From NCBI GenBank assembly GCA_021234155.1, contig JAJEKV010000062.1, positions 3,445,305-3,509,304 on the forward strand: DNA of 64,000 nt, in the 5' to 3' direction. The position numbers were made by a program, and so were the translations under genes. This DNA is from Isoetes taiwanensis. Taxonomy: Eukaryota > Streptophyta > Lycopodiopsida > Isoetales > Isoetaceae. Positions 11,505-47,445 of the stretch are shown here, piece by piece (within the stretch, counting starts at the first letter, position 1; each line of letters opens with the position of its first letter). The notes under the pieces are model-generated. The model saw only the letters and a program-made list of their open reading frames with translations, had not been told where the DNA came from and made no database searches.

Positions 11505-12129
11505 ATTCTAGAATGGGACTCGCATGAAACCAACAAACCGAACTTGCTTCTCATTCATCTCAGCAGATTTTCTACAATGGTGGATAGTGGGTAGCCGCAC
11601 ACATGCGAACTACCCATAAAAAATAAAGGGAAAATCCAATTATATCATTTGGACCCCAACAAAATACAATGCTAATAGAGACTGGGCTAGTGTACCTGCC
11701 GAAAGCTTATCACCGGGATTAAAAAACCCCGCCCTTTCGGGTTTTCGAGGAAAAACCCTAGTGATAAGCCTTCGGCAAGGGGCTTGGACAAACGTAAGGC
11801 ATAAAAATCGCTCCCAAAACCCACGAATGGAAAAGTCGAAACAGATGCCGCTCGCTAACCTGTACCTGCACATCACCAACAAAACAACAAGACAAAACAA
11901 ACCTCACAGAGTGGAGGGGCTGATTACGCGCGTGCCACGCGATAAAAATACAATAACAAAGAAGGGGGGGAGGGTGGGTTCAAAGAGAATAAGGTACTGC
12001 TGAGAGAGAAGAGGAAGCGCCGATGAGAAGTCGAAGCAGAAACGCGCCTAAAATAGCGAACTCCCAAATAGAACGGGCATGCGCCGCCCCCATGCATGCA
12101 AAACATGCATGCTCGTCCCATTCTAGAAT
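11505..12129 (-). repeat. Hairpin-rich repeat family, copy 1
   Basis: Read on the minus strand, this is a relative of the repeat at 46719-47445. Its ends are a 22-bp inverted pair, ATTCTAGAATGGGAC-GA-GCATG against ATTCTAGAATGGGAC-TC-GCATG (11505-11526 and 12108-12129). Inside, in minus-strand order, are CATGCATG palindromes, the CGCGTGGCACGCG palindrome, CCTC...GAGG, then hairpin I (11769-11705, arms GCTTATCAC/GTGATAAGC), hairpin II (11657-11628, TCCAA/TTGGA) and hairpin III (11615-11589, GGGTAG/CTACCC). A further hairpin, GATCCGA/TCGGATC, lies just outside at 12133-12152. The frames inside are not shared with the other copy, so this does not look protein-coding. It may be a non-autonomous transposon or a structured RNA gene. 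Confidence 0.65.
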
Positions 12130-12152
12130 GGCGATCCGATGTCTCGGATCGA

Positions 12153-13172
12153 TGGGATCAGTGGAATTTAGGGCACATGGTTAACATATTATGGACTTGC
12201 AGAAAATCATGTTATAGAATAATATATTAATTATAGAAGATATGGATGCAGATAACCCAAGGCATATGGCATGTTCTTAAGGGCAAGTATAAGGTGGCCA
12301 TCTAGTACGAAATTAAGGATAATATGATAAATAATAGATTGAGATGAGCCATGGTGGAAACATATTTTATGAAGAAAATAAGATACTACTAATCATTAAC
12401 AAGAATGGTTTTGATAAAATACAGATATGGCGGACAAAAGAAGATTCGAATATACAGAAAACTGAATCTGACCCTCGAAATCATTGTTACAATTGGAGGA
12501 TGGGTAGGCATGGGTCGTACCAAACTAGACAGTCGGATATGGCATGGAAATAGATATGACGATGCACACCCGTAGTACTGTCGGTAGCAAGGACATGACT
12601 TCTGCTTTTTAGGGTTTATAGGAAATGCTTATATAGACATAAATGCATTGCTCAAACAAAAGAACAGAGCTATTCCATGCTGGATCATACGACCCCTAAT
12701 ATAGGCAGAAAGAAAGGGGATCTTAATATGGCTACAAGATAGAGGATTGTTGAGGAAAAGTAGAAGTTAGGCAATAAAAAGATATAACCATCATTCAATT
12801 AAATTGGGATTATGTCTATTCCAAAATCGCGCCGTATAAGCATTGTATTGACCATTATATTGAATTAACCACACTTTTGCACTGTGTTCATTTTCGGGCT
12901 AGGAAGATGCATTTTATGTTAAAATGCAAAGGCATTCAAATATTCGATGCAAATGACCCATATTATGACAGAATGTTGGCAATAGAAAAAGCAGGAAATT
13001 GCTTATTAATTCGCACATTCACGGACGACAACGAAATCTAAACATTGAAATTGTAATGCTTTACGAATAAATAACGCAAGCAAGTTGCTACAAAGCGAGA
13101 TTTTTTTAGGGTTCAAATCGAAGGTGGCGCGATTTGCTTGGCATAAATAACGCATTATAATAGAACATAATC
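12153..13172. other. No assignable gene
   Basis: AT-rich sequence with only short frames. One GGCGCGATTT half-site of the palindrome family seen at 14-20 kb occurs near 13125. Confidence 0.4.
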
Positions 13173-13406
13173 TTAAAAACTAATCCGATTCATCGCCGCC
13201 AGCGCCGCAGCGTCCCGAGATCCCGGCCGATCATGAACAAACCATGCTCGATTCCATATAAGATGGATTACAACATCAAAGGGATCAGGATAGAAGCGGA
13301 CGGGATTCATAGCAACGACATCAAGCCAGTCCTGAAGTTCTATTTCTAGCTCGCGGCACCTGCAGAGGTCCGCATGGTTCATCTTGCAGGTAATAGAATG
13401 TGCCAT
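13173..13406 (-). CDS. Small uncharacterised protein, 77 codons
   Basis: An ATG at 13406 opens a 77-codon frame (MAHSITCKMNHADLCRCREL...). It has a cysteine-rich start (C-x6-C-x-C), a tryptophan-rich centre (DWLDVVAMN, LIWNRAWFVHD) and an Ala-rich end, closed by TAA. A canonical TATA box stands about 55 bases upstream on the same strand, supporting transcription. I do not recognise the family. It may be an independent small gene or the last exon of the minus-strand locus upstream. Confidence 0.4.
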   Translation of the reverse strand: MAHSITCKMNHADLCRCRELEIELQDWLDVVAMNPVRFYPDPFDVVIHLIWNRAWFVHDRPGSRDAAALAAMNRISF

Positions 13407-13461
13407 AATAACAAGCAGAAGGCAGAGACCGAAGCCGATGGTTTGCCAATTTCATGCATGC

Positions 13462-13470
13462 CTATTTATA
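13462..13470 (-). promoter_or_regulatory. TATA box for the 77-codon ORF
   Basis: The minus strand reads GTGTATAAATAGGCATGC, a textbook plant TATA element, 56 bases before the ATG at 13406. Confidence 0.5.
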
Positions 13471-14014
13471 CACACCTAAATTATTGACAGTAGATACATA
13501 CAAATTATTGCAAGTATAGCAAACCATACACATAATATAAAAAACAATACGCATTATGTAACCAATAATGCTGATATATAAGAACACAATATATATTCAA
13601 AACCTTTTCGTAAAGTATATTTCATATTCAAAACTTTTTGGAAAGTGTATTTCCCGTGATACATATATAAAAAAAAGTTCCCTTTCTAGAACGATCTTCT
13701 CTAGGTCCCCCGCCAATTTCCCTGTCCGATTAATGGGTATAGTGTTTGTATCTCTTCTAATCGCTTTTCCCCTGAAGCTATTTCGCGGCAAGATACCGAC
13801 AAAACGAAGCAGAAGTCATCTTTTGTCAAAATCTTCGGGATGATAGGATGGTGGATTTAGTGATCGTGGACTGATTGAAGCAACACTTCAAAGCGCCATC
13901 ATCAACTATAATGATGTCTTCCTTCTCCGAACGCCCAAGTCATCCATCATGTCGCCAAGCATTTCACAAATATTTTTTTACCCGTAGGATCCTTCGGGTT
14001 ATTGAATGACTTAC

Positions 14015-14280
14015 ATTTGCTCGATCCCAAACAGATGCCCAATCTCTATGTAACTCGGGAACTACTCTCAAAACTTCCTCAGATATTTCTATTCTCCATC
14101 GACGACCAAATTGCAATAAACCAAATAAAGTGAAAGCTTGGTCTAACATCTCCTTCAGATACGGTGACGGATATGCCCATTTCAGATATGTCTCAAATGG
14201 TTTCGTGCATACCATGATAAAGGGAATTGTGCTTTAGGTAACGCTTTTGCGCAGCACTCCATTCAAATCGAACACCAGAA
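14015..14280 (-). other. Candidate exon with GTAAGT donor
   Basis: The minus strand reads PFETYLKWAYPSPYLKEM, then a leucine-rich segment, ending DWASVWDRAN immediately before GTAAGT at 14014-14009. The intron upstream (about 14290-14452) opens with a GTATGT donor and holds three copies of the GGCGCG palindrome family. Confidence 0.4.
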
Positions 14281-14328
14281 TTTTGAGGAAACTAGATTAG
14301 GTCTCAGAATAATAAAGCACACACTTGT

Positions 14329-14440
14329 GCCCGGCGCGATTTTCAATTCTCGTTTGAATAATTGAAATCGCTACCGGCGCGCATTTTCAATTTGGTTTGA
14401 AGAATTGAAATCGCTACCGGGCGCGATTTTCATTTCGCTT
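14329..14440. repeat. Palindrome-family tandem repeat (14.3 kb cluster)
   Basis: About 2.5 copies of a unit of roughly 47 bp, AATTGAAATCGCTACCGG followed by CGCGATTTTCAATT. It contains half or full GGCGCG palindromes at 14334, 14368 and 14416. It lies within an apparent intron of the minus-strand locus. Confidence 0.6.
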
Positions 14441-15038
14441 GATTAACATACCTTTTCGTTCCTCGCTCAACATCCGCAATGATGAGCTTATTCTCGGCCG
14501 TCTTCGGATTCCGCCGGTGTCGACCACATCACTTAGTGTTTGAACTATGGTTGATACTTCATTACTCTTTATGCTAACCCGACTCGAAGCTTTCGGAATC
14601 CATCAGATCATCTAGGATTTTGTCTTCTTCGCTTATGCTACCTACATCCACTTCCGCCGATTTTTCAATGTGATTGGAATGAAAGGCACGCCTCTACCGC
14701 ATAGTTAAGCCGCCGCTTGTCGATATTCTTCTTTATGCCCTCTAGATGCTTTCTCATTTCTTCCCGGCTCTGCTGACCCGGTCTGCGCGGTAATGGGACT
14801 TAGAGCTGGAAGCTTTATTTTTTGCACTACCTAACGGACCCCTAGGTGCCACCTCTAGCACTTTCGAAAAAATATCAAAGGAAGTCCTTGGCTTGACCAT
14901 CGAGACCACACTTTGGCATTTCCTAGCTAGCTTCAGAGCTTCCCACCGACATAACCTTCAACATGAAACTCCCAACACGTAGACTCTAAAGGGCGAAGTC
15001 TTCAATCGAAAACTCGAAGGGCCAAAGAAAACCCGTAC

Positions 15039-15818
15039 TTATTCAGCCTCCCTTATCGCCGTCAAGTAGCTCATACTTGATTGGTGAATTAAGGGCGATT
15101 GGTCGACCTGCTTTTCTTTTTCCTCTTCCTCTTCGATCCTCTTCAAAGTCCACATCGCATAGTCTCCTTCCCTTTGTCTTGACATTGGATTCGACATAAA
15201 AATATTTTTCAATAGGGGTTCATCTAGCCGATAGCACCGCCAAGCAATCTTCTCACCTTCCGGTTTCCCCCTTGAGTCTTTCATATTCTTTATCATCCAT
15301 AATGGCTATCATAAGGACTAGCACATGTGAGATCTTACTTTCGGCAATTAAACTCACTATCTTTGTTTTCATCTATCATTCCGCTTGCCTCATCACTTTA
15401 ATGCATTCGACATCATTTGCAGCAGCTAGTGCATATGCGTAGGACATGTCGGAGTGGCAAACTGTCACGATAGTATAATGCATCTCAGTCGTCAAACCAC
15501 CGCATGTGTTGAAGAAGGTGCTGTAATCATCTGTCCATCTCGTGCCCACGGCTATCAAGAACAAATAGAGTGATGTCGGTTGGCCCTTCACCCACCCTCC
15601 GGCATGGCACATTTATAACCGTGGACACCTTATAGAAAAAAAGGAGACTCGTTTCTGCCGTCTTCTTCACCAAAGCAACTTTTCTTTTTAGGTCGACGCA
15701 ACTTTCGTCGTGAATCCTTAAGAGTTGCCACATTCTTCGCCTTTTTCTGCTTCACAAAATCTTTTGACCAGAATACATATTTCTTAATGTCATCATTAGA
15801 TACGTTGTACTTTTGCAT
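15039..15818 (-). other. Candidate exons of the minus-strand locus
   Basis: Three overlapping minus-strand readings: KYNVSNDDIKKYVFWSKDF (15818 onward), GEGPTDITLFVLDSRGHEMD (about 15590-15530) passing by frameshift into TRWTDDYSTFFNTCGGLTTE and the Ala-rich YALAAANDVECIKV (to 15376), and KIAWRCYRLDEPLL (15296-15039). Codon patterns look real, but at least two frameshifts are needed. Confidence 0.35.
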
Positions 15819-15933
15819 TAAGCCTATCTCTCGATAACATCATGTCTCCCCGAGAGCCTTTTGCGGTTCTTCGCCCAATGCCTTTTTTCAGACTTTCATA
15901 TTTTTATCGATTCGCATGCATCTTCAAAAGATG

Positions 15934-16404
15934 TCAAGTGCTTTGTCGCAGACGTTTTTTGTAGATAACTTCCTTTTTCTCGATGCAACTATCTAGAATA
16001 GAGATTAATTCTGCCAGATCATCCAATCCTTGTGCCTTTCTCATTTTTGTGATATGTATATCAAAAATAGACGTTATCTTGAGGGAAACCCGCCATAACG
16101 AATCGGCAACTTCTTTTCCGAATAGGCGTCCCAAAATTCGTTCCACTTTTCCCATACCTGGTCAGAAGAAAAAACAATCTTGCAGGCATCCTTTGGCACC
16201 GTTTGCTCTTCTGTGCCAGCTTGTGCATCCCCTTTTTTCTTCTTTGATCTAGTGCCCTTGGTCTTGTCCTGTATTATGGTTTGGCACAGTGTCCTTTCTA
16301 GTAATTTGAATTCGGCACTCTTAGATTGCCCTTGTCTGGTCGGCATTGGTTTTCCATATTCGATCCATTGGTTACGAGCGTGCCGCAACTGCTCCACATA
16401 CGGA
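15934..16404 (-). other. Candidate exon of the minus-strand locus
   Basis: It starts after a TTGCAG acceptor at 16405 with PYVEQLRHARNQWIEYGKP. A lysine-rich linker and VWEKWNEFWDAYSEKKLPI follow. Reading then continues in a second frame (KITSIFDIHITKMRKAQ) to LRQST and a stop. A one-base frameshift near 16085 separates the two readings. Confidence 0.4.
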
Positions 16405-16449
16405 CTGCAAAATATGGGCCGTTAGATAAAAAAAATAGACAGGCCGTGA

Positions 16450-16730
16450 AAGTAACAATATAAAAGCGCCAGCGGGCGTTTCGCATCCGACGGATTTACA
16501 AAGAACGGCGCCGGGCGCGATTTCTTCACGATGAAGAATTCGCGCCAGGCGCGTTTCTTGTAAATCCATCACAATAACAACATAAAAAGCTGGCGCCCGG
16601 TAGCGTTTTAATAATCACGTATTTAAAAACGCACCTGGGCGCCATCTCTTCATGTATGCCATATGAAGAAATCGGCGCCCGGGCTTTTTGTAAAATACGC
16701 GGATTAGATTAAAACGCCACCGGGCGCATT
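16450..16730. repeat. Palindrome-family cluster (16.5 kb)
   Basis: Seven GCGCC/GGCGC-type palindromes in 280 bp, including CGCCGGGCGCG (about 16509), CGCGCCAGGCGCG (about 16541), GGCGCCCGG and CACCGGGCGC. Most are flanked by A/T-rich AAATC or GATTT. They sit inside the intron between exons ending at 16762 and starting at 16404. Confidence 0.65.
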
Positions 16731-16761
16731 TTGGAACGCTATGTGTGGGAAAATAAAATAC

Positions 16762-22155: not shown

Positions 22156-25040
22156 ATGCAAAATGCTAAATCCCCCAAGGCCCCCAATGATGGTGATCAA
22201 GGCAAGGATGACAAAGATGATGGCAAAGGAAAGGAAAAGACCTCAAATGAAAAGGATGATGCCAAAGGTAAGGAAATTGTACTTTATAATTCCAGTCGAT
22301 TGGAAAAACAAAAAGGTCAAGATCCCGCATGCATGCAATGAGAGGGAGAGGGAGAAGGGATTATTGTTCTAGCAGATCCTATCAATGCAAAGTGAATGAT
22401 GAAAGATTAGGGGAGGACAGGTTAGGTGTGGCAATCTCAAAATTATATGACAATTGGAAGGAAAAGGGTTGAGGGCAAACAAGAATGCCTTGCTTGTGTG
22501 AAGCAACTAGAGGTTCCAACTATTGTTGCATGGCCTAGGGACAAGATTCAACCTGGAGGGGAACTACACGTTTCCTATAGATGTAGAACCATTGTCAATA
22601 ATGTTCACACAAGTGTAGCAAGAGGCCACTTCCAACTTTCAAACATTATCCCACCAAAAGATGCAAGTCGATTATGATTGTTCTCCGAAGCCTTGATGAA
22701 GGTTAGAGGAAGTGAATGTTGTTGGGCCTCAGTATTAGAATGTTCACAATAGAGGAGATGGTGGCAAGCAAAGAGCTACATATCAGGAACATAAGTGTGA
22801 TAGCAGAGGAATTTCATGTACACCATATTTGGCTATGCAATTGGGATGAAAGATCAAAGAAGAAAAGATTCCCATTGAATGGAAAGTGGATATGTTCAAA
22901 AGCATGGATGTCTATACATGGAATTCCAACCTCTTCTTGGCATAACCGGCAAAAGAGACATGAAAATGGTAGTAAAATTGCATTGCATGGGAACACCGGC
23001 ACGGTAAGGCCTACCTCAAGAACTATAGTGCAAAGGAAATATTTGAAAGATATGTGGATTTCAATGCGTAAAACATGCCACATAAGAGTAAGAAGGATGA
23101 ACAGTGGTAGAGTTATTGTTGAAAAGAGATTGCCATCCCATTGTACCCTTAAGAGCATATTAGAGAAAATAAATGCATTGCTTGAGAACTTGGAGTGGCC
23201 TCTATATATCCCCAGTTTTAGTAGGCTATGGAATAAGCATTTCAAGCATGTGACCATAGCAACTTCAAACAACTTTGCCAAGTGCAATTTATGTGCTAAT
23301 TTGAAGGAGACACTAGATAAGACCGCGGCAACCAAGTCTAAGGGCAAAGATAAAGGGAACATATGAAGGACCATATGACGGATCAACTATCATGTAGATC
23401 AACTTATTGGATGTGGAGGACCTTATCAAGAATGGAACCTAATAACTATCTATGTATTATACATGATAAAATGGACCAACAGAAGACTTGTCTTCCACAA
23501 TTCAAGTACATTCCTAAGTCATGTGGAAGATCATACCCTTTGCAGATTTCAATGACTGGGGCAATATTGCATGGGCAGTCTCAGACCTATTATGGCCATT
23601 TCAGTTTAGAGTTGTGGAGTGATGCTCCGATTTTCACATTGGGAGTATCATGAGGTGTTTAAGAAACTATGAGAAGGGTTACAATGGTCACCCTATGGGA
23701 TCCTACACTAGCCAGGCACTACATAGTGCATTGTTGGATGGAACCCTAATAGTATTGAAAAGTTTAGCAAGGCAAGATTTAGGAGGAATGGACCTAATGA
23801 ACATGTTGGAGCTTCAACATCTCGTGCTAAACCTCGAGATCTGCCCAGAAAGCTCCTCTTGCAACTAGATAATTGTGTTTGGTCAAAATAAGAACAGGTG
23901 GATGTTTTCTTTCCTATCCTACTTACCGGTTTGTGGGTATTTTTGAAAGAGTCAATTTGGGGTTCCTAATGCCCGGACATACTCATGAGGATGTGGATGC
24001 ATTGTTTGGAAAATATAGTCATGTATTGAGACAGCAGACAGTTACCAACTTTCCCAGGCTATTGGAAATATTTCATGGATGTACAAATCCATCTCCTATA
24101 GGATCTATCATAGAAGAAGTGCCTGATTGGAAGAGTTTTGTGGATGGTTATGCTCTCGACATGGAAGGTCATTCTAGACCTCTTCAATTCACTTTTTGGG
24201 TGAGAGAAGGGATTCCAATCATGCAATGGAAAATGAGACCTTCGGAGGAGATGTGGAGAGGTGGGGCAGAAATTTGGCTTGAGGGATGCAAATGGCAAGC
24301 CTATGATACCTCCTGGTCAACCAAAAGCTCTAAAACCAACTGAAGAAGTCAAGCAATTGGGCTTGACTAAGGATGGCATCAATGACTACATCAAGCATTG
24401 GCAAACTAATTCAGATGACACTAATCGTGCATTGATAGATTATTGGAAGAAGGTGATCAACTTGTTGGATGAGGTAGACACATCCTCAGAAGAGCTGCTA
24501 GAAGGGTGGTTCCCTAAAAGTAAGTGGAAAACATTAGCTGGTGCTGACGAAGATGATGGTACCATTAGTAGCATTGTGAAGGCATATGCTCCTCCTCAAT
24601 CTGATAAACACTATGTTGGTCCTAAGAAGGATAGGCCAAAATATTTAGGCATGGATTGTTATGAACCTTCTACTGACGTGGAGTGCCACCAATTTGTAGT
24701 AGTAAAACTAGCAGATCTAGAGACCTATCCAGTGTGGTTGGGATACACTATCTCGGATATTTGCAAAGAAGAAGGTGATGTTAACTTCAATAAGGTGCGC
24801 GTGGAATGGTGGTGTCCAGTACATCAGTTGAGTAATGTCACCGATAAAGAAAGATATTCAGATTGTTGGACAAAGAGGTGGAGGAGAAATCCAAGTGATC
24901 CTGATCTTTGGCTAGACATTGAAACCGTATTGTACTCGTGGACTCCAAAAACTATTCCTAGTAAAACAGCGAGAGTTACAATACCTCAGGATGTAAGGAA
25001 TAAGGTTCTCATATCCTTGGGGATGCTAGTGGAAAAATGA
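22156..25040 (+). pseudogene. DUF7869-like, transposase-related gene, decayed
   Basis: Reading in order: an Asp/Lys-rich tail (22156-22340); a segment with LACVKQLEVPTIVAWPRD (22426-22677); a cysteine segment with SRLWNKHFKHVTIATSNNFA...KCNLC (about 23215-23300); IIHDKMDQQKTCLPQF (about 23456); LDNCVW followed in other frames by NKNRWMFSFLSYLP and GFLMPGHTHEDVDALF (about 23860-24010); then the C-terminal frame. The D-x-MDQ-KT, LDN...NKN and GHTHED motifs in this order match the DUF7869 family, found in many eukaryotes and suspected to be a DDE-type transposase core; the enzymatic role is inference. At least four frameshifts make it inactive. Confidence 0.6.
24261..25040 (+). CDS. C-terminal open frame of the DUF7869-like gene
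   Basis: A 259-codon uninterrupted frame. It overlaps the preceding GHTHED-bearing frame (to 24343) and is shifted against it, so it was probably once continuous with it. It contains LTKDGINDYIKHWQ, acidic DEDDGTISS, a central domain with YLGMDCYEPSTDVECHQFVV (an apparent BAH-like beta segment), VEWWCPVHQL and the end VRNKVLISLGMLVEK, then TGA. This is the best-preserved part of the locus. Its function is unknown; similar C-terminal extensions may read chromatin or DNA, but that is speculation. Confidence 0.5.
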   Translation: MGQKFGLRDANGKPMIPPGQPKALKPTEEVKQLGLTKDGINDYIKHWQTNSDDTNRALIDYWKKVINLLDEVDTSSEELLEGWFPKSKWKTLAGADEDDGTISSIVKAYAPPQSDKHYVGPKKDRPKYLGMDCYEPSTDVECHQFVVVKLADLETYPVWLGYTISDICKEEGDVNFNKVRVEWWCPVHQLSNVTDKERYSDCWTKRWRRNPSDPDLWLDIETVLYSWTPKTIPSKTARVTIPQDVRNKVLISLGMLVEK

Positions 25041-25467: not shown

Positions 25468-25556
25468 TGTGACGGTCCAGGGGAATATACGCCATAAATA
25501 CGTATATTCCTGGATCCGTCACCATACAGGTCTATCTTCATAGCCTTGTATACCAT
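25468..25556 (+). repeat. Start of 5' LTR (LTR A), diverging after about 88 bp
   Basis: Bases 25468-25550 match the start of LTR C (36840 onward) with one substitution (CAGGTC for CAAGTC). The first 57 bp form a long hairpin, GTGACGGTCCAGG...AATATACG facing CGTATATTCC...CCGTCAC. After ACCATAGA the sequence is unrelated to LTR B or C. Confidence 0.75.
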
Positions 25557-25884
25557 AGAATGGGTCGAAGAATCATACCAATCGGAGACCCGAGTGAAAA
25601 ATGGTGCAAATCCATAATTAGCACTTCAAACCATTAGAAAATTCGAAAAATTTTAGGTATAATACGAATTAATACAGGATTAATACATATCTTAATAATT
25701 AAATAATTACTAAATATGGTGTAATTAATAAGGGGGGGCTAATAGATAGGGGTAATTATGGTGAGAGAATATTCCTAGGGACCCTCCTTTTTAAATATTT
25801 GACACCTCATTCTCTCTCTCCAACCTTCCACCTCCACCTCTCTCTTGCTTTCCTTTACGCCACCCATTTCCCGAACAAGAAGAC
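25557..25884 (+). promoter_or_regulatory. Leader before the H3-like sequence
   Basis: AT-rich sequence with a TATA-like TTTTTAAATATTT at about 25788-25800, followed by a pyrimidine-rich leader (CTCATTCTCTCTCTCCAACC...CTCTCTTGC) up to the ATG at 25885. This could be the promoter of a histone-type gene or the U3/R region of a variant LTR. Confidence 0.35.
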
Positions 25885-31510: not shown

Positions 31511-31813
31511 GATCACGCTGGCTCCGTGATGCTTAAGCCTACCAAGAAGGCCATATAGAATGAGCACCCTGAATTGATTGAGCTCAAGAAGCGGCTTCAG
31601 GAATTGCTTGAGCTTGGCTTTATAAGAGCAAGTGTGTCTCCTTCTGAGCACCTATACTCTTTTGTGAAGAAGAAAGATGGGAGCTTAAGAATGTGCATAG
31701 ACTATCGCCCACCAATAAGCGCACGATAAAGAACAAATATGCATTGCCAAGGGCGAGATGACCTAATGGACCCGCTTACAAGGAGCAAAGGTATTCTCTA
31801 AAATTGATTTGAG
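31511..31813 (+). pseudogene. RT N-terminal fingers, frameshifted
   Basis: Readable pieces include [20 protein letters not shown] (about 31580) then [23 protein letters not shown], and KIDLRWGYH at about 31801 just before the long frame. These are the conserved Ty3/gypsy fingers motifs (GxIRxSxSPxxxP, KKKDGSxRMCxDYR, KIDLRxGYHQ). A one-base frameshift near 31828 separates them from the polymerase frame. Confidence 0.75.
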
Positions 31814-34333
31814 GTGGGGATACCATCGATAAGAATAAAAGAAGAGGATATCCATAAGACCGCTTTCAGAACGCGGTATGGTCATTTTGAGTTTATAGTA
31901 ATGCCCTTTGGACTATCGAACGCTCCAGCAACGTTTATGCGCCTCATGAACGACATCTTCAGAGACTTCTTGGATGAGTTTGTTATTGTCTTCTTCGACG
32001 ACATTCTAATCTACAGCAAGTCCCTCGAGGAGCATTGTCAGCATCTCAGGAAAGTGTTGGAGAAGTTGAGACGTCATCGGTTGTATGGGAAGCTCTCCAA
32101 ATGCCACTTTGCAACAGGCCGAGTGGAATATTTGGGGCATGTTGTAACATCCGAGGGAATTTCCACAGATCCATCTAAGATAGAGGCAATAGTTGATTGG
32201 CCAGCTCCAAGGAATGTGGCAGAAGTGAGAAGCTTTCTTGGGTTAGCGGGATATTACAGAAAGTTCGTGAAGGACTTTGCTAAGTGGGCGTCCCCTTTGT
32301 CGGACCTCACCAAGGCCAAGAAGATTAAGGATTGGACTAGTCATTGGTTAGAGAAAGTCCAAGCTTCCTTCGAGAAGCTTAAGGAGGCCTTAACAACAGC
32401 ACCAGTGCTTGTTCTCCCGGATCCGAGTAAAGATAAGTTGGTAGCAACAGATGCAAGTAAGATAGCAACAGGAGCAGTCTTGATGCAAGAAGGAAGGGTA
32501 GTCGCCTACGACTCGAAGAAGATGAACGACGCCGAGCAACGCTACCCAACCCATGATCAGGAGCTGCTAGCCATTGTCAGGGCATTAAGGATATGGAGGC
32601 ATTATTTGCTGGGGAGGAAGTTTCAGTTGGATACTGATCACCAGAGTCTGCAGTATCTTTTTACCCAGCCACTCCTCAATTTAAGGCAAAGGAGGTGGAT
32701 GGAATTTCTTGAGGAGTATGATTTTGATATTGTATATAAGCCCGGCAAGCTTAATGTTGTAGCAGATGCCCTCTCCAGGAGACCATTTCAGACAAGAACG
32801 CATTGTAATGCGATTTCCACTCTTTCGAGTGAGTTTGGCAAGAAGATTGGGGAGTCCTTGCCAACCGATGTGGACTTCAAGGAGGTGTGGGAAAGCCTCT
32901 CCAAGGAAGCCAGAACAGATAAAGAGCGGGAAGCCTTCAAGCATTATAAGAAGGAAGGCAACCTGTTGTATCACAAGCATAAGTTGTGTGTGCCCGAATC
33001 ATCAGGAGTAAGGAAGCTAATTCTTCATGACACACATAACAGCCCAATAGCAGGGCATGCTGGCTTCATGAAGACCTATTTCAAGATTCGAAGTAGTTAC
33101 TTCTGGCCAGGAATGAAGAGGCAGATAGCTGCATATATTCGGGATTGCCAGTTATGTCAGCAGACCAAAGCGGAGCAACTTCGGATTCCAGGTGCTTTAG
33201 AGCCATTGGGGGTGCCAAATGCGAAGTGGGAGGTCATAAGCATGGATTTCATTACAGGGCTCCCTAGAACTCTTCGAGGCAAGGATGCATTGATGGTTGT
33301 CGTGGACAAGTTATCTAAGATGGCACATTTTGTGCCTTGCAAGACTACTGACACCGCATTAGATACTGCCAAGTTATTTGTAAGGGAGATTTTTAGACTC
33401 CATGGCATGCCTCGGGAGATAATATCTGATAGAGATTCTAAGTTTATGAGTGCCTTTTGGCAGGATCTCTTTAGCACCATTCAGACGAAGCTCTCCATGA
33501 GCACGGCATATCATCCCCAAACAGATGGCCAGACGGAGAGGACGAATCGGATCATTGAAGACATGCTTCGAAGCTATGTGTGGAACAAGCAGTCCAAGTG
33601 GGATGAGTACATCCACTTGGTGGAATTCGCCTACAATAGTGCCAAGCAAGAGTCATCTCAGATGTCTCCGTTTATGGTAAATTACGGGTACCAGTGCTTA
33701 ACCCCGGATACCTGGCACAATCCTGTGTCGAAGGTGGAAGTATCCCAGCAGATGTTAGGGGATATGCAGCAGCTAGTGGAAGAAGTAAGGGGTTACTTAT
33801 TGGCAGCAAGAAGTCGGCAGAAGAGTGTAGCCGACAAGCACAGGACCGTAAGAGAGTTCAAGGTAGGCGATAGCGTTTGGTTGAAGATCAAGGTGAAGCA
33901 AGCCAAGCTTCGGATTGGGAGTTGTAAGAAGCTTGCCCCTAGGTGGGCTGGTCCGTTCAAGATTTTGGAGAGAGTGGGCTCTCAAGCCTACAAGTTGGAT
34001 CTTCCGGCCCATCTCAAAGTTCACAAGGTCTTCCACGTAAGTTTATTAAAAAGGCACAATCCTAACCCTGAGGAGGTTTTGGATACTCCAACCTTGTTGG
34101 AAATGACGGAGGAGCAAGTAGAAATAGTGCCTGAATTACTTCTTGATAAGTCATTCAAGAAGACTAGGAGGTCTCAGTTCCTCCAATATTTGGTTAAGTG
34201 GAAGCACTTGCCCGTGGAAGATGCGACATGGGTATTGAAGCAAGATTTGGAGAAGCAATACCCAGAGTTTATGAAGGAGTTTGATGGGCGAGTCGTCTCC
34301 GACTTGGTCGACCCCGACTTGCCAGGTGGTTAG
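31814..34333 (+). CDS. Chromovirus Pol: RT, RNase H, integrase, chromodomain
   Basis: An 839-codon frame without stops. The GTG at 31814 is only where the frame opens. Residues: RT palm [12 protein letters not shown] 30-41 and catalytic FFDD 60-63; RNase H catalytic D213, E250, D273 or D275, D318; integrase zinc site H408, H415, C445, C448; integrase triad D478, D539, E575 (the last in TDGQTERTN); GPF module WAGPF 711-715; chromodomain about 771-823 with [10 protein letters not shown] and [11 protein letters not shown]. The C-terminal chromodomain after GPF defines a chromovirus and usually guides integration to heterochromatin. RT N-terminal fingers are lost by frameshift, so the protein as read would be inactive. 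Confidence 0.95.
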
Positions 34334-35180: not shown

Positions 35181-35194
35181 TTGGGGGGGGAGAA
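35181..35194 (+). promoter_or_regulatory. Polypurine tract
   Basis: TTGGGGGGGGAGAA directly precedes the TGTGAC start of LTR B. It is the expected plus-strand primer of an LTR retrotransposon. Confidence 0.85.
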
Positions 35195-36839
35195 TGTGAC
35201 GGTCCGGGAAATATCGCCATAAATACGTATATTCTCGGATCGTCACCATACAAGTCTATCTTCATAGCCTTGTATACCATAGATTGTGGCACTAGGGGCA
35301 TGGCCAAGTTATTCTCATAACTTAGCCAACCATAGGTTAGACCATTATCCACGTGGCCTCAACCTATTGGGCACTGCCACCACACGGGGACTCACCCAAT
35401 TGGTGCCACGTGGCATCCTAGGTGGACCCTAACTTATTTAGGCCTAAACCCTAACCCTAGGCCTCTTTTCCAGCCCTAACACCCAGAGACTCACCTACTC
35501 GTTCGAAACCCCGTTTCGAACATCGTTTGCTGTGGCATAGACTGGTGCAGCAGCCCCAGCAGGGTAGACTCGTTCTTGGAGCAAGACCAGCATCGCGAGA
35601 GTCGGAGACCATGGAGGCAATACCGGATCTGGAGGGAGAGCTTGAGAGCGGTATGTAGGATAGTAGTTGTGATAGCTCATCCGGAATTAGCATTCCAATT
35701 GGTGCTAGTATCTTGTATCTAGAGTAGAGCCATCCTAGAACCGTATTTAACATCTTGAACCCTAATCAACGAACCCTAACCATTAGTTAGATTGTATGAT
35801 TAGGTTAAGATGTTCTTCTTATGATTATTCTCATGATATGATGATTATGTGATGATGGTTGATCATGTTTGCTCCTCTTGTATTGGGAAGGGGGGTAGAG
35901 ACCTAGAGCCATATGTAGTATGTTCCTAGAGTAGATCCCTTAGTTCCTATTAGTTGCGGCACGTGCATAGGAGCCCACCGGGCTATCGAGGCTATGACAT
36001 GACTCAGCACCATACGGGGGGGGCCGGAGGGAATGTGGAGGGAGAATCCCTGCCAAAGTGGGGGCCGGGGGATCCCATAGTGAGCTAGGCTTATGGTGGG
36101 TCACGCCCGTGTGGGGCGAGCATGGGTCCGACACCTCCACGGGCAGCGGTGTGCCTCTGCCTCGGGAGCTGCAAGTGTTGGCTTGGCTCTCGTTTTGGGG
36201 GTTAAGTCGGGTGCGAATCGTGTGTCGCCACGCGATTCTCTAGCCACCCACGGAACCTCTAGACCACAGGAAGGGGAGATGCAACCCTTCTGCCTCATCG
36301 GACCCGGGGAGATGCAACCTAGAGTAGTCCCGATGGGTGATGCCATGGGATTATTATCCGGAAGGCTAGAGTCATGCGAGCCTGATTTAGCCCATCTGCA
36401 AAGTATGCACAGGAGGGGTGGATGGAGTGGTCAACCCTAGCCATTGTTCTATGCCAGCCCTCGTCATTGCCATGACTCGGTCTGCTCTATCCTGAGGCCT
36501 AGCCGGTCAGTCATCCTCCTTACGAGTCTGAGCCGGGGTAGGAGCTCTCATGTTTTACGGTTTGTGTTTATCATCTTTGTATTGGTATATGGGTGATGCA
36601 CTACCCTTCGAGGTAGTATTTGTATATGTTTGATGCTAGTTCTGACGTGTTATCGCGTCCGCTGTTATAGGAGCCCATAGGGGAAGGGCGCGCAAGACAC
36701 CTTCGTATTCCCTCCCCGCACTAGGGATCACCTCAGAGTGCGGGGTAGACGAAGGGCCCGTGCGGTTGTTGAGCCGGACGGGGGATTTCCTGCCGAGTGT
36801 ACGGCTGGGCGCCGTATGTTTAGCAGAAATGTGACGGTC
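35195..36839 (+). repeat. 3' LTR, first copy (LTR B)
   Basis: It starts TGTGACGGTCCGGG after the polypurine tract and is collinear with LTR C over its whole length, with scattered indels. The terminal GGGAGCGTCACA is missing; it ends GTTTAGCAG followed by AAA and then the TGTG of LTR C. Telo-box-like AAACCCTAACCCTAG occurs near 35447-35460 and AACCCTAA again near 35757-35780. No ORF shared with LTR C is convincing. Confidence 0.85.
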
Positions 36840-38464
36840 CAGGGGAATATACGCCATAAATACGTATATTCCTGGATCCGTCACCATACAAGTCTATCTT
36901 CATAGCCTTGTATACCATAGATTGTGGCACTAGGGGGCATGGCCAAGTTATTCTCATAACTTAGCCAACCATAGGTTAGACCATTATCCACGTGGCCTCA
37001 ACCTATTGGGCACCCGCCACACAGGACTCACCCAATTGGTGCCACGTGGCATCCTAGGTGGACCTAACTTATTTAGGCCTAAACCCTAACCCTAGACCTC
37101 TTTTCCAGCCCTAACACCCAGAGACTCACCTACTCGTTCGAAACCCCGTTTCGAACATCGTTTGGTGCAGCAGCCCCAGCAGGGTAGACTCGTTCTTGGA
37201 GCAAGACCAGCATCGCGAGAGTCGGAGACCATGGAGGCACACGGATCTGGAGGGAGAGCTTCAGGAGCAGGTATGTAGGATAGTAGTTGTGATAGCTCAT
37301 CTGGAATTAGCATTCCAGCTGTGCTAGTATCTTGTATCTAGAGTAGAGCCATCCTAGAACCCGTATTTAACATCTTGAACCCTAATCAACGAACCCTAAC
37401 CATTAGTTAGATTGTATGATTAGGTTAAGATGTTCTTCTTATGATTATTCTCATGATATGATGATTATGTGATGATGGTTGATCATGTTTGCTCCTCTTG
37501 TATTGGGAAGGGGGGTAGAGACCTAGGGCCATATGTAGTATGTTCCTAGAGTAGATCCCTTAGTTCCTATTAGTTGCTGGGCTGTGCATAGGAGCCCACC
37601 GGGCTATCGAGGCTATGACATGACTCAAGCACCATACAAGCGGGCCGAGGAAATGTGGAGGAGGATCCCTGCCGAAAGTGGGGGCTTGAGGGGGATCCCA
37701 TAGTGAGCTAGGCTTATGGTCGGTCACTTCGTGTGGGCCGAGCATGGGTCCGACACCTCCCCGGGGCACCCGGTGTCGCCCCCCGCCTCTCGAGGCTGCA
37801 AGTGTTGGCTTGGCTCTCGTTTTGGGGGGTTAAGTCGGGTACGAATCGTGTGTCGCCACGATTCTCTAGCCACCCACGGAACCTCTAGACCCTGGGAAGG
37901 GGAGATGCAACCCTTCCTGCCTCATCGGACCAGGGAGATGCAACCTGGAGTAGTCCTGATGGGTGATGCCATGGGATTGCGTATCCGGAAGGCTAGAGTC
38001 ATGCCAGAGCCTGATTTAGCCCATCGCAAAGTATGCCGGGAGGGGCGGATGGAGTGGTCAACCCTAGCCATTGTTCTATGCCAGCCCCTCGTCATTGCCA
38101 TGACTTCGGTGCGCTCTATCACGAGGCCCTGGCGGGCGGTCATCCTCCCACGAGTGCGAGGCGGGTAGGAGCTCTCATGTTTTACGGTTTGTGTTTATCA
38201 TCTTTGTATTGGTATATGGGTGATGCACTACCCTTCGAGGTAGTATTTGTATATGTTTGATGCTAGTTCTAACGTGTTATCGCTTCCGCTGTTATAGGAG
38301 CCCATAGGGGAAGGGCGCGCAAGACGCCTTCGTATTCCCTCCCCGCACTAGGGATCACCTCAGAGTGCGGGGTAGACGAAGGGCCCGTGCGGTTGTTGAG
38401 CCGGACGGGGGATTTCCTGCCGAGTGTACGGCTGGGCGCCGTATGTTTAGCAGGGAGCGTCACA
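36840..38464 (+). repeat. 3' LTR, second copy (LTR C)
   Basis: It starts TGTGACGGTCCAGGGG, identical to the left end LTR A, and ends GGGAGCGTCACA, giving inverted TGTGACG/CGTCACA termini. It is followed by the target duplication GATCT. LTR C is closer to A than to B in the first 85 bp, so A and C look like the true ends of the insertion and B an internal extra. Confidence 0.85.
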
Positions 38465-41261: not shown

Positions 41262-41490
41262 CTTAAAAGGAGGAACTTAGCTTTAAACTTTCCCATGTCA
41301 GCAAAACTGCCTTTGATTATTATACCAATCAGCTATCATATACACACCTGCTGATCTCCATCGACACTGCGTCAATGGGTGGGCTGAAGATACCAGAAGA
41401 CCACCGTCCAATGGAATTCACCAACAACTTGCAGTAGTGCTAGTGTGCCAACGCAAGATGGTGGAAATGAAACAGAGATTGTACATTCTC

Positions 41491-42155: not shown

Positions 42156-42157
42156 AA

Positions 42158-42845
42158 AATAATAATAATAATAATAATAATATATTAGATCATGCTTCGT
42201 GAAGCCCTTAAGGGCAAGAAGCAGCAATTACAGATGTTTTCCAAAAGGAAAATCTATACCTCACACATAACATTTTAACAACAAGGATCTATGTTGTTCA
42301 ACTTCTAGAAAATATCTACCCAAGGAATTTGAATCTATCTGTAAAAGTGTATAGAAATCTGAAGTACCTATCTGATATCTATCCCGAATTTCCGAATATC
42401 TCGGGCATCTTAAGAAGGTATGTGCTTCATCTTCAACTTGATGTTCATCACATAATGTGCACAAACGTTCCAGTCTAGGAGTACCATTCCAACGGCCAAC
42501 CTCCACATGTAAGCGATGTGAGCTTGTTCTGTACCTTGCTATTGTCCTTCTTATCCATAGTGAATGTGACTTACGCAGGTAATCTTGGTCAGCAAATACA
42601 AGCATGAGATTTACCTCTCGCTTATAAAATTCCATCCTTGACCCCTTCGTCTCCCAAAGCCTCTCCATAACTTTCCCTTGGACTAGATCCCTAATCCCCT
42701 CATCTGTATCCGGCCAATCCTGTTCTTCAATCCCCCATCGTTGAAACCACTGAATAACTTCCCGCATCCAGCCATTATCCTGAGTTATTTCAGTAGCTAC
42801 TACTGGCAGCCTGGATCTGTCAAGTGTTCTGACTCGGGTGATATA
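42158..42845 (-). mobile_element. 5'-truncated LINE fragment nested in another LINE
   Basis: The minus-strand frame 42767-42261 reads MREVIQWFQRWGIEEQDWPD, TIARYRTSSHRLHVEVGRW and the zinc module CTLCDEHQVEDEAHTFLRC, ending at TAA. The 3' end GCCCTTAAGGGCTTCACGAAG leads into a (TTA)n tail (plus strand AATAATAAT at 42158-42182). It sits between the palm and thumb regions of the other LINE, so it inserted later. Target duplications could not be placed with confidence. Confidence 0.75.
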
Positions 42846-43701
42846 GGCTAGGGAAAAAAATCCAACAAGGAAATGACATTCTGCAAATTTTGCTCATCTG
42901 CGCGCAAAAAATAGAAAGTGTCATCCGTATATTGATTACATATCTCCTGCGACCCATTGTTCATAGGAAGTCCATGCAAAATTCCTTGAGCGGCAAGAGA
43001 GAAGACCTGGGCAAGGACCTCTGCCACAACTATAAATAACGATGAAGCTAATGGGAAGCCCTGACGGATGCCACGATCCACCTGAAAGAATGCTGAGGGC
43101 TCCCCTTGGAAGAGAATAGAAGAGCGAGCAGAATAATTAAGCCTCATGACATCATCTATGAATTGGGCATAAAACCAAAGCGTAAGAGACATTTCTCTAA
43201 GAAGGTCCAGTCAACACTGTCGTACGCTTTTGCAAAGTCCAGCTTCAAATATACAATTTTATGGCCCTGAAGTCGAGCTCAATAAATACCTTCATAAGTA
43301 GCAGCAACATTGTTCAATGTGCATCATCTTGGCAGAAATCCTGACTGTGTAGAGGATATTGAATCAGCAAGAATATTTCGAAGCTTTTGTGCATAAGCTT
43401 TGGCAAAATCTTGTATACATAAGATAGCAAGGTAATAGGGCGCCAGTCCGAAATTGATGAAGTCCCCTTCCATTGGGAAATGATAGAAATGTAGCTCGAG
43501 TTAAGAATTTTGTCTAGATGCCTTTACTGCTTGAAATCCTGAAATGCATCGTACACATCATCACCAACCCAATCCCAGAACTCCTGAAAGAACTCCACAA
43601 GAATACCATCAATTCCAGGACACTTTCCTTTCTTCAAAAGGAAGGTAGCAACTAATAAATCATTCACCGTAATCTCTGCTTCTAGAACAACTCTTCGCTC
43701 C
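42846..43701 (-). pseudogene. LINE RT palm
   Basis: The minus strand reads FFQVDRGIRQGFPLASSLFI, then QYTDDTFYFL, the catalytic box in which the usual QYADDT has Thr for Ala. Upstream, toward 43700, CPGIDGILVEFFQEFWD and KAYDSVDWTFL-like remnants are visible in several frames. It belongs to the LINE with endonuclease at 44.1-45.3 kb. Confidence 0.8.
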
Positions 43702-44541
43702 TCAAATATATATCTTTACAAGTAGTGCCTCCTGAAAATCTGATTGGAAGGAAAGGCGACGAGAAGAAAAAAGGGAAGAAAAGTGGCTATGTAGAAAGGA
43801 CTTAAATTGCTCAGGATCAGATATGAGAGGCCCATCTTGAACTTGGAGAGACACCATCGCAAAAGCTTGTCTCCGAATTTTTGCAGCTCTGAAAAAGAAG
43901 CCGGTGCAGCGATCCCGCCTCTTTGAACCATAGCAGGCCCGCTTTAACTCAAGCATGATGAATTTGCTCAGCTTCCATCTGTCTAATGCTGGGAAGAATC
44001 TGCTTCTCCTCTTGGTATCTGATGGTACAACAGACCTGTAAGCCACTAACTGTTGGTACAGAGTAATCAGAATCCCTTGATTAGCAGCAACTCGCTAATG
44101 ACCCCAATTCTTAGCAAAGGACTTCACAGCAGTCAGAGCATCAACAATCCCAGACATTCCTTTCCTTTTCACAAATGCAGAGGACCAAGCTTGCATGCAT
44201 CCATTCTTAAACTCCTCATCCTTCAAGTATGAAGTGTTTAACTTGAAATAAGTCTTGGTCTTGCTATGCGCCCCATCCTGAGAACAAGAGAAATATTGTG
44301 GATTGTGATCTGAAATAGAGTTGTCAAGCATGTTTTGGCGAGAGAAATTATGCAAATATGTAGCTGCCAATGCATTATAATATCCCCTGTCATGACATGC
44401 ATATGCTCTACCAGCTCCAAGCCAGCCATTGCACCAAGTGAAGGTTCCATCACCATCTACCTCTACCAAACCACAGTCATGCACCAAGCGCTGCCATTGT
44501 TCACGTTCAAAGCCTTGGACGATCAACTTCTGCCGCATCAA
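43702..44541 (-). pseudogene. LINE endonuclease C-terminus and EN-RT linker
   Basis: The frame 44541-44095 reads EREQWQRLVHDCGLVEVDGD, GTFTWCNGWLGAGRAYACHDR and NMLDNSISDHNPQYF, matching the APE-type endonuclease end (TW...DR...SDHxP, with the catalytic SDH present). The frame 44046-43702 reads the helical linker (FIMLELKRACYGSKRRDRC, FKSFLHSHFSSLF) that precedes RT. Confidence 0.75.
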
Positions 44542-44929
44542 TCAACTTCTAACTCTGCCATATTGAAGTCACTCACGAACAACCATGCAACATGAATCCC
44601 CAGTCGAACAAGTTTGGATCTCAAAGCAGCCCAGAGTGCACCTCTCTGATAAGGCCTATTCCTGGGAGATTTAATTATAACAAAAGGGATATGCCATCTG
44701 CGTTCAAGGGGTGGCCAAAAATGCCTTTGGTATACTGACTTATGAAAGCTAATTTAACCCCAAAAGTATATAGTTTACCCCAAATAGTGGTAAAAAAAAC
44801 CCCCTAATGGTACGTATGCCTACGTAAAGTGGTCAAAAAAACCCCTATAGTTGAACTCACATGTTCCGCCCAATAAATGTGAATCCCTTGGGGATCTATT
44901 GTGCGCATAACATTCACTAGTCCCCACTC
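44542..44929 (-). pseudogene. Decayed middle of LINE endonuclease
   Basis: ALWAALRSKLVRLGIHVAWL and FVSDFNMAELEVD (GDFN motif variant SDFN) are readable at about 44640-44550 on the minus strand. The stretch 44690-44880 contains AAAAAACCCC blocks and no coding signal and may be a small insertion. Confidence 0.5.
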
Positions 44930-45286
44930 TTATCCCTTATCAAACCACTTGATAATGATCCAGCGATCAAATCTGTCAGCATGAGTGAATATGACTGCTA
45001 TATCATGTCTCCATGTTGTAAGGACCCCCGCTTTTGCCGAGTCTACTGTAGCCACCAAGATGTTATATTGCATACCTACCACAGAAGCTACCTCTTGCAC
45101 ATTCTCCTTTTTGCACTTGTGCTCTTGTAAACAATAGAAATATGAATTCAACCTGGCAAGAGCCATGGAAAGTCTGCTCCTTTTGGTTGGCGAAGAAGCA
45201 ACATCCCGAACATTCCAGGAAACCAGCTTCATAATATAGGGGGTCTGATGGCTGGTGTTCCAAATCCATGGAGTCGCTATTAGCAC
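44930..45286 (-). pseudogene. LINE APE endonuclease N-terminus
   Basis: MKLVSWNVRDVASSPTKRSR at about 45232 is the start signature of plant L1 endonuclease, followed by FYCLQEHKCKKENV carrying the catalytic Glu (LQE). The frame is open for 118 codons. It begins the minus-strand LINE that runs to 40.8 kb. Confidence 0.8.
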
Positions 45287-45289
45287 ATG

Positions 45290-46343
45290 ATGTTTCCACC
45301 TGATCAGCCCAGTTCAGTCCAGATGATGCAGGAAGGGTTGTAACAATGGTAGCCATTGCTGGTTCAACAGGACTAGCACTCTCAGTAAGAAGAGATTGTG
45401 GTGCAACAGACAAGTTGCTGATGCAACATAGGGCTGGTCTCTAAATCAAAGTGAAATCTTAAGCATAATACTCCATGGAAGCATTTATATTTGCATCCCC
45501 AGAACTGGTCCCATACGTTCAAATTGCTATGTCTCATTTTCCTTGGATACTGCAAAATAATAATTTAGTACTATTTATCACATTTTCATGGTGCTTTCAG
45601 TCCGTAAAAGCCATATTTGAGGTTCTTTGTGGCTTCGATTTTCATCCTTACCCAATGTGTAATTTTTCTTGGGTATGGTTGCGAGATTCACATAAATCAT
45701 TAAGGATGCCCAAGAACACCGTCCGTTGTTTGAACCTCCACATACCTTGCTAATGTCCGTATGTTTCCGATGTGGCATGCTAGCTATAATAATTGATTCT
45801 AAACAGATTGGAGGCCCAGAAATTTATTAAAATGGGCTCTTCTAAATACTGCAAAAATATTAAAAGGGTTACTCTCGTAAAATCGCAAAGGTTGGATTGT
45901 AGAGTTTAATCATGTTATAATCATGAAATATTGATATGACCTAGACAAAATTATGATGGAGCAAGATTTATCTAACCTAAGATTAATGGTTGAATTTGAA
46001 GGCTTTACTCAATATGGGATATATCCCATATTGGAGGGAACCGTTATTCGAAAAGGAAAAGTTGCTTCATTGAGGATTCTTTGGATCGATCGGCTCGCCA
46101 TAGCGACCGCATCCTGATCTACAAATATAGAAGAAGGATTTAACATATTGCATCGATGGATTGACGGTGCCTTGCAGGTGTTACAAGACTAATTCTAATG
46201 CTGCTTGGGCTATCGAAGGTGAAGTCAATGCTGCTACAGTGATATGGTCAATACCTCAGCTACAGTGATTTTACTATAGTATGTTAAAGGTTAAGTTATA
46301 AGGTTGGTTCATAAGCTATTAAGACATTTGAATCAAATATGTC
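45290..46343. other. No assignable gene
   Basis: Up to 45.43 kb it may still be LINE 5' leader. The remainder is AT-rich with short frames only. CAGCTACAGTGAT and CTGCTACAGTGAT repeat near 46232-46270. Confidence 0.4.
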
Positions 46344-46716
46344 AACGATCCGCGTAGCGGATCAGGATTCTTATGCAAGACGAGCATGCATGCATTGCAT
46401 GCATCGCATGCATTTTTAGGCCGTTCATCAGGTTAGGGGATCGCTATTTATTGCAGAGTTCTTCATCGACTGTTCATCGGCGCTTTCTCATCTCTCAGCA
46501 GTATCCATGGCTTCTATTCTTTTATCTCATGCGGAGGAGGGGCTTCTTCTTGCATGAGCTACTCTTTCTTAACCATTCCTACCCTTTCTAACCTCTTCTA
46601 TCTTTGCCTTTTTGTCCGGCATAGGACAATTCTTCAACTTTTTTCCTGGGATCTAGTATTTGAAGTTCTCTGGTATCGGGATGTTGTTGTTTTCATGCGA
46701 GTCGCAGAGCAAGAAT
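46344..46716 (+). repeat. Hairpin-rich repeat family, short unit
   Basis: Begins with the hairpin GATCCGC-GTA-GCGGATC (46347-46363), then ATTCTTATGCAAGACGAGCATG and CATGCATG palindromes, and shares GTTCATCGGCGCTTTCTCATC with unit 2. It ends TTTTCATGCGAGTCGCAGAGCAAGAAT. The middle is different: hairpins I-III of the other copies are absent, so it is an internally deleted or divergent member. Confidence 0.6.
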
Positions 46717-46718
46717 GT

Positions 46719-47445
46719 CATCGATCCGCGTAACAGATCGGGATTGTTGCGCAAGACGAGCATGCATGCATTGCATGTATGCATCACATGCATTTTTAGG
46801 CCGTTCATCAGGTTGGGGGATCGCTATATATTGCAGAGTTCTTCATCGACCGTTCATCGGCGCTTTCTCATCTCGCAAAGAAGATCCGCTCCCCCCCTCC
46901 CCTTTAAAATTGTTATTTATATGTTCATTTTTGTTATAATTGTCGCGTGGCACGCGTGACCAGCCCCTCATTTTTTCGAGGTGTAAATATTGTTTTTTTG
47001 TCGCATGGCATTTGTGACCAACCCCTCGCTTTTCGAGGTTTTTTCTCTATTGGTTTTTCTGTTGGTAATGTGCAGGTCCAGGGGTGATGCGTGACTTCGG
47101 TATTCTCTGTGGAGCGTGGGTTTTTTTGTGGGAATGTTTAGCAGCCCTGCGTTGTCCAAGCCCCTTGCCCAGATTTTATCGCTAGGGTTTTTCCTCGAAA
47201 ACCCAAAAGGACAGGGTTTTTTAATCCCGACGATAAGCTCTCGGCAGGTACACTAGCCAACATCTGTAGCACACAATTTTATTTGGGGTCCAGGTCTTAT
47301 AACTGGATATCCCCTATGTTTTTCATTTTTTGGGTAGCCTGCGATGTGCAGCTACCCACCCTATACCATTGTAGAAAAAACTGCTGAGATGAATGAAAAT
47401 CCTAGCTAGATGTTGTTGTTTTCATGCGAGTCACAGAGCAAGAAT
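46719..47445 (+). repeat. Hairpin-rich repeat family, full unit (copy 2)
   Basis: Same order of elements as copy 1 at 11505-12129, opposite orientation. Shared features: CGCGTGGCACGCG (about 46946), CAGCCCCTC...GAGG (twice, the second in a local duplication with GTCGCATGGCATTTGTGAC), GTGCAGGTCCAGG, then hairpin I (47176-47236), hairpin II (47285-47314), hairpin III (47332-47357), CCATTGTAGAAAA, CTGCTGAGATGAATGA and the end TTTTCATGCGAGTC. Stem bases differ from copy 1 in compensating pairs. No common reading frame. Confidence 0.7.

Follow-up and report, generated by a model that had tools for sequence, protein, structure and literature searches.

Helitrons generally insert without a constant target duplication, and Replitrons, a second eukaryotic HUH group, are common in non-seed plants and have short direct repeats at or near their ends. 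Here we describe a hairpin-rich repeat family of the lycophyte Isoetes taiwanensis, found in a stretch of 64,000 nucleotides (assembly GCA_021234155.1, contig JAJEKV010000062.1, positions 3,445,305 to 3,509,304 of the forward strand), referred to below as the window, and conclude that it is very probably a non-autonomous Helitron2-like rolling-circle transposon of high copy number. The described systems closest to it are Helitron2 (Bao and Jurka, 2013), FoHeli of Fusarium oxysporum and DINE-1 of Drosophila, and our comparisons draw on portions of the papers reporting them. Helitron2 ends carry asymmetric inverted repeats of 8–15 bp, which lie 0–2 bp from the 5′ end and ∼20–30 bp from the 3′ end, and some Helitron2 copies of Chlamydomonas are reported to be exceptions among Helitrons in having target duplications (PMC3627910). 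The DINE-1 authors inferred compensatory changes in the terminal stem, together with a possible role as a replication terminator (PMC2374699).

Units, ends and target site

The hairpin repeats in the window are three units of one family. Unit B1 (11505..12158, minus strand) is a full-length copy of subfamily 1, while subfamily 2 is represented by a short unit, A2 (46339..46716, plus), and a long unit, B2 (46715..47445, plus). A2 and B2 have ∼160 bases on the left and 37 on the right in common, the middle of A2 being its own, and they share the AT at 46715–46716, the joint of a head-to-tail A+B dimer that covers 46339–47445 on the plus strand. The original prediction had recognized two copies, of which copy 1 is B1 less 29 bases at its left end and copy 2 is B2, the right half of the dimer, with A2 noted separately as a unit at 46344; the borders are thus corrected to 11505–12158 (minus) and 46339–47445 (plus), and the homology of the two copies holds (73% over a 468-column alignment). 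The B1 borders, 12158 to 11505, are also those of its relatives, as most of the 40 scored genome copies begin at query position 13 and end near 666, the left border being identical in 16/16 fetched copies and the right border clean in 14/16. The resulting unit length, ∼660 bp, is like that of short non-autonomous Helitron2 copies of Chlamydomonas, at 657 and 673 bp (PMC3627910).

Both subfamilies are abundant. A search of the genome (1,658,258,908 bases in 1110 contigs) gave 3867 first-look candidates with copy 2 and 3424 with copy 1; besides the window's own copies, the best 40 scored with copy 2 are mostly full length and 89–92% identical to it, and those scored with copy 1 are all 96–98% identical. 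These identities suggest that subfamily 2 is the older and subfamily 1 the younger, although only the best 40 copies per query were scored and the divergence figures are therefore biased to young copies. From 30 fetched loci of subfamily 2, 28 B2 and 12 A2 units passed the motif and length filters, as did 17 B1 and 7 A1 units from 16 loci of subfamily 1 plus the window. The consensuses agree at 480 of 649 ungapped positions between B1 and B2 (74%) and at 244 of 354 between A1 and A2 (69%). A short A unit stands directly upstream of B in 21/40 scored copies of subfamily 2 (two with a partial A only) and in 13/40 of subfamily 1, and A and B of one subfamily have ∼160–180 left and 36–41 right bases in common. 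Because both end stretches are shared in this way within each subfamily, the two kinds of unit have changed in step at their ends. A head-to-tail array, (A-B)x3, whose final unit is cut short, occupies one locus (L071/L081, G000:C963:11935277-11939300).

In the orientation of the original prediction, subfamily 2 runs from AATGTCATCGATTCGCGTAGCGAATCGACATTCTTGCACAAGACGAGCATGC to GCATGCGAGTCGCAGTGCAAGAAT (ends of A2; one hairpin pair is G-T in the B2 consensus) and subfamily 1 from ATCCCATCGATCCGAGACATCGGATCGCCATTCTAGAATGGGACGAGCATGC to CATGCGAGTCCCATTCTAGAAT. Both have an inverted repeat of 10–15 bases, its left copy 26–29 bases inside and its right copy terminal, and a hairpin with a stem of 8 pairs that lies outside the inner inverted repeat at the left end only. 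B1 accordingly has a terminal hairpin (12132..12151, minus; CGATCCGA-GACA-TCGGATCG), an inner copy of the asymmetric terminal inverted repeat (12115..12129, minus; ATTCTAGAATGGGAC) and, at the extreme end, an outer copy (11505..11519, minus; GTCCCATTCTAGAAT); the terminal hairpin of A2, likewise outside the inner inverted repeat, is GATCCGC-GTA-GCGGATC (46347..46363, plus). It had been proposed that the ends pair around a GA/GA internal loop. The loop occurs in all three units, and the pairing extends further than claimed, the consensuses having the inverted repeat of 10–15 bases (ATTCTAGAAT... or ATTCTTGCAC) outside it.

To judge by these sequences, the Helitron direction would be the strand opposite to this orientation. 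Read thus, the inverted repeat (ATTCTAGAATGGGAC or ATTCTTGCAC) is at the 5′ end, its partner is 26–29 bases from the 3′ end, and the hairpin falls between the inner inverted repeat and the 3′ end, the hairpin of A2 being the 3′ terminal hairpin on the minus strand. The asymmetric spacing of the repeats is that of Helitron2, as is the T at the 5′ end (Bao and Jurka, 2013; PMC3627910), and a hairpin just beyond the inner inverted repeat, before the 3′ end, has been described for such elements (PMC3627910; PMC5148889). FoHeli likewise has asymmetric inverted repeats and terminal hairpins, and two of its subgroups insert after ...AT (PMC5148889). DINE-1 is similar in its subterminal inverted repeats, high copy number, variable middle and stem-loop beyond the 3′ repeat, the sequence of which varies by species while its pairing is kept; it differs in preferring TT for insertion (PMC2374699). 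The TT insertion of Helentron/DINE-1 is not found here, since AT stands at both borders, and a canonical Helitron1 (5′ TC, 3′ CTRR, no inverted repeats) is rejected on account of the inverted repeats and of a 3′ end other than CTRR; a 5′ TC is compatible with the data, the exact cut within ATTC being ambiguous.

Nearly all of the 30 subfamily-2 loci cease to resemble one another at two common points (exceptions are L010 and L011), and the flanks of the loci are independent of each other; one locus (L025) yielded no borders, and 3/30 yielded no right border. AT was counted at 45/46 left and 42/42 right borders, although these counts lean to AT because the motif used contains it and some subfamily-2 left borders are A/B joints. 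The base to the left of AT in subfamily 1 (n = 16) is A in 7, T in 5 and G in 4. An unoccupied stretch within the window (4358..4563, plus) matches the joined flanks of copy L026 at 86%; AAT occurs there once and at both borders of the filled site, so that this single empty site has no target duplication longer than AT. The stretch lies in the interior of a foldback repeat (4139–4690) with ∼170-base arms of 94% identity. From this one site and from flanks judged by eye, the family has no constant target duplication, a 9-base repeat at one locus being contrary (see below). With the same exception, the flanks show by eye neither variable target duplications nor an A-rich tail, and the empty-site comparison likewise lacks a SINE-type duplication, so an origin as a SINE or retroposon was rejected. 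The zinc-knuckle open reading frame (ORF) downstream of copy 2 (48104–48730) brings to mind an LTR retrotransposon, but the 30 loci have independent flanks.

The presence of AT at both borders, the inverted repeats and the short size would also suit a miniature cut-and-paste DNA transposon with a 2-bp AT target duplication, and the empty site taken by itself fits such a duplication as well as it fits insertion between A and T. This is highly improbable, however, given an inner inverted repeat set 26–29 bases in from one end, a hairpin beyond it, and a single AT common to adjoining units at head-to-tail joints. An element of another HUH group, namely a non-autonomous Replitron, would account for the AT at both ends as a short direct repeat of the kind such elements carry; we regard it as very unlikely, as an asymmetric inverted repeat with a one-sided terminal hairpin is the published Helitron2 pattern and as genes for RepHel, the HUH nuclease-helicase, are abundant in this genome.

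Paired changes between subfamilies and decay within them

The hairpins on which the original prediction was built are present both in the window and in the subfamily consensuses. These are hairpin I (TTATCA/TGATAA against TTATCG/CGATAA), which lies at 11697..11777 (minus) in B1 with the stem TGCCGAAGGCTTATCAC/GTGATAAGCTTTCGGCA and at 47166..47246 (plus) in B2, hairpin II (TCCAA/TTGGA against TCCAG/CTGGA) and hairpin III (GGGTAG/CTACCC, with CGCA/TGCG against CTGC/GCAG inside). For the outer hairpin, GATCCGA/TCGGATC against GATCCGC/GCGGATC was confirmed, while copy 2 itself is broken at two pairs (GATCCGC...ACAGATC). The statement that no reading frame is shared needs qualification, as a common frame of ∼35 codons runs open across hairpin I in the two copies, with amino-acid changes between them; a homologue search with the copy 2 frame found none, and a protein reading was rejected.

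Covariation was assessed by taking the stems from one consensus fold (span ≤150 bases) and scoring the aligned letters of the other subfamily, against a null in which these letters were redealt among positions with the same reference base (1000 shuffles). In the B1 fold there are 14 compensated double changes (four of which involve a G-T pair) against a shuffle mean of 4.8, and 26 broken pairs against a mean of 51; 0/1000 shuffles reach the former or fall as low as the latter. The paired changes named in the original prediction are real. The reciprocal B2 fold agrees in part, with 8 compensated against 4.4 expected (68/1000 shuffles reach 8) and 32 broken (0/1000 as low). On the opposite strand, B1 has 9 compensated (15/1000) and 27 broken (0/1000), and B2 has 4 (357/1000) and 30 (23/1000). 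For the short unit, the A1 fold gives 6 compensated (49/1000) and 21 broken (70/1000) and its opposite strand 8 (1/1000) and 17 (57/1000), while the A2 fold gives 5 (214/1000) and 12 (0/1000) and its opposite strand 4 (108/1000) and 22 (305/1000). Across all runs, one direction gives strong support and the others moderate to none. In the terminal inverted repeat, which exceeds the 150-base fold span, 3/10 pairs are changed on both sides. A hand table of 75 pairs, chosen by pairing and carrying no statistical test, has 54 pairs the same, 17 changed on both sides, 2 changed on one side and 2 unpaired in one subfamily.

Compensatory changes in two related elements are likewise reported for Helitron2 (PMC3627910). 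Such changes could also arise in a transposon by template switching between hairpin arms during single-strand replication, with no selection on the internal hairpins. In the A hairpin both arms differ at six adjoining pairs (CCAGGCA/TGCCTGG to CTCATGC/GCATGAG), a block that a single templated event would produce, and the A middle folds no better than dinucleotide shuffles. In hairpin I, on the other hand, unchanged and one-sided pairs and one broken pair lie between the two compensated ones, a pattern that looks stepwise, and the terminal hairpins show the pattern that the published work, in the portions compared, ascribes to function. We therefore consider template switching a possible but somewhat unlikely origin of the internal changes.

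Against dinucleotide shuffles, folding energy is more favourable for whole units on either strand (z −3.65 to −6.55) and for the B middle (z −2.5 to −4.6). It does not distinguish RNA from single-stranded DNA. The compensated changes between subfamilies, the folding of the B consensuses on both strands (z −5.0 to −6.55) and a TATA-like stretch near 46825, read by eye, could be taken as signs of a host family of structured non-coding RNA genes whose copies are kept for RNA function. The divergence of copies within subfamilies, measured over the stems and loops of each consensus fold, makes this exceedingly unlikely. Stem and loop divergences are 0.0089 and 0.0090 in B1 (17 copies), 0.0296 and 0.0232 in B2 (28 copies), 0.0061 and 0.0057 in A1 (7 copies) and 0.0343 and 0.0361 in A2 (12 copies), and because the stems change about as fast as the loops or faster, the copies are not kept as host RNAs. 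CpG positions diverge faster (B1 0.0163, B2 0.0495, A1 0.0097, A2 0.0571). Single stem changes that keep or break the pair number 24 and 35 in B1, 152 and 208 in B2, 6 and 3 in A1, and 38 and 48 in A2, the breaking shares of 35/59 in B1 and 208/360 in B2 being observed shares without a null; double changes keep or break it 6 and 2 times in B2, 2 times and once in A2, and not at all in B1 and A1. The copies thus decay as plain DNA, and the constraint, if selection is the cause, sits on the source elements.

An Rfam search of the window at gathering scores gave no match, and together with a stem divergence about equal to that of the loops or higher this tells against the structured non-coding RNA named in the original prediction. 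Its other suggestion, a transposon recognized through hairpins, fits the borders, the AT target, the Helitron2-type anatomy and the compensated changes between source subfamilies. The best relaxed Rfam match, mir-9413 at hairpin I, scores 29.7 bits against a gathering score of 100 and reflects a generic long stem. A retrozyme or hammerhead was also rejected, since no Rfam family reached its gathering score and no ribozyme was among the 3+3 relaxed matches over the copies. A tRNA search found none, and one exact motif in a viral collection and one in a prokaryote collection gave 0 matches.

RepHel genes and points against the assignment

RepHel genes are many in this genome, with 1813 candidates, of which 150 were scored, every one of the 150 exceeding the Pfam cut-off. 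The window contains an open RepHel ORF (428-3910, plus) of 1160 aa with Helitron_like_N and PIF1 domains. The named proteins that match it best come from fungi (Cetraspora pellucida, 47%; Fusarium oxysporum, 40%), while nine other RepHel ORFs of the genome, compared with ten selected reference proteins, are closest to flowering-plant proteins. Transfer between a fungus and a plant is possible from these matches, and a fungal-like RepHel ORF in a lycophyte genome is a further point of interest.

Several observations weigh against a Helitron2-like assignment. The family ends are absent from three RepHel loci of 9.9 kb and from the window RepHel locus with 4 kb upstream, and they were not found within ∼1.5 kb either side of 30 further RepHel loci, so that, in a difference from Helitron2, no autonomous RepHel element with these ends was found among the loci examined. 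The 5′ hairpin, which in Helitron2 involves the 5′ inverted repeat, has an energy of −3.3 kcal/mol (RNA parameters) in subfamily 2, where it is weak, and of −1.9 in subfamily 1, where it does not convince. Compensation of the terminal hairpin is complete in A2 and only one-sided (G-T) in the B2 consensus. In the orientation of the original prediction, covariation is strong in one of four fold directions and weaker in the other three. There is one empty site only, at which a 2-bp duplication and insertion between A and T are indistinguishable. Locus L029 is flanked on either side by a 9-base direct repeat, GAATGTGCT, the sole duplication-like flank by eye in subfamily 2; it is unexplained, and the analogy with Chlamydomonas, where Helitron2 copies with target duplications are reported, including 1/200 copies of one family (PMC3627910), suggests that it is not fatal. 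The units of the (A-B)x3 array are 88.8–98.9% identical to the consensus, and this unequal divergence suggests repeated insertion beside older copies and not one rolling-circle multimer. Finally, the internal hairpins have no described role in the portions of the Helitron literature compared.

A pattern for an autonomous partner, which excludes A/B sequence after the shared left end and covers relatives keeping the exact 24-mer followed by two purines, gave 0 matches. Weak end-like motifs (five edits) occur in L031, L033 and L057.

Elsewhere in the window, an open Ty3/gypsy pol frame (31808–34333, plus) has reverse transcriptase, RNase H, integrase and chromodomain, and an open frame at 23873–24343 (plus) matches Pfam DUF7869 (E 1.1e-20). 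A tandem direct duplication of 1.6 kb (35193–36826 and 36828–38453) has 93% identity, and a 95-base piece of it recurs at 25468–25562. Direct repeats of ∼775 bases (57910–58678 and 60458–61233; 93.5% identity) are possibly the LTRs of one element.

Proposed movement and its meaning

In the mechanism that we propose for a Helitron2-like element, a RepHel protein made elsewhere would nick at the 5′ end, one strand would be copied by rolling circle, and copying would stop at the 3′ hairpin. Paired ends and hairpins would be read on the single strand, so that source elements would keep their pairing while the sequence drifts, and read-through past the first stop would let A+B move as one unit. FoHeli also includes elements with repeated ends, which are ascribed there to self-insertion; what is repeated in FoHeli are short 5′ pieces (<200 bp), (PMC5148889), whereas in the present family the long unit is preceded by a complete short one that has both of its own ends. 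For DINE-1, the portion of the work compared makes no mention of short and long units in a fixed pair (PMC2374699).

For Helitron2 and DINE-1, the literature already records paired changes in the terminal hairpins. The compensated internal hairpins are less usual, as is the coupling of A and B units whose ends change together; the A+B pair occurs in both subfamilies, and neither feature is described in the portions of the Helitron2, FoHeli and DINE-1 literature compared. A stronger claim, that the internal hairpins must stay folded in source elements for movement, with the ends of short and long units changing together, is improbable. If it were true, the full length of the single strand, or of its transcript, would be recognized in folded form, for example as a nuclease scaffold or guide, or as a packaging signal for the rolling-circle machinery.

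In this very abundant family, source elements are set apart by compensated changes and the copies decay as plain DNA, which offers a simple way of distinguishing sequences "selected to jump" from those "selected as host RNA". Should further subfamilies show selection on the internal hairpins, structure outside the two ends of the element would be required for Helitron-type transposition.

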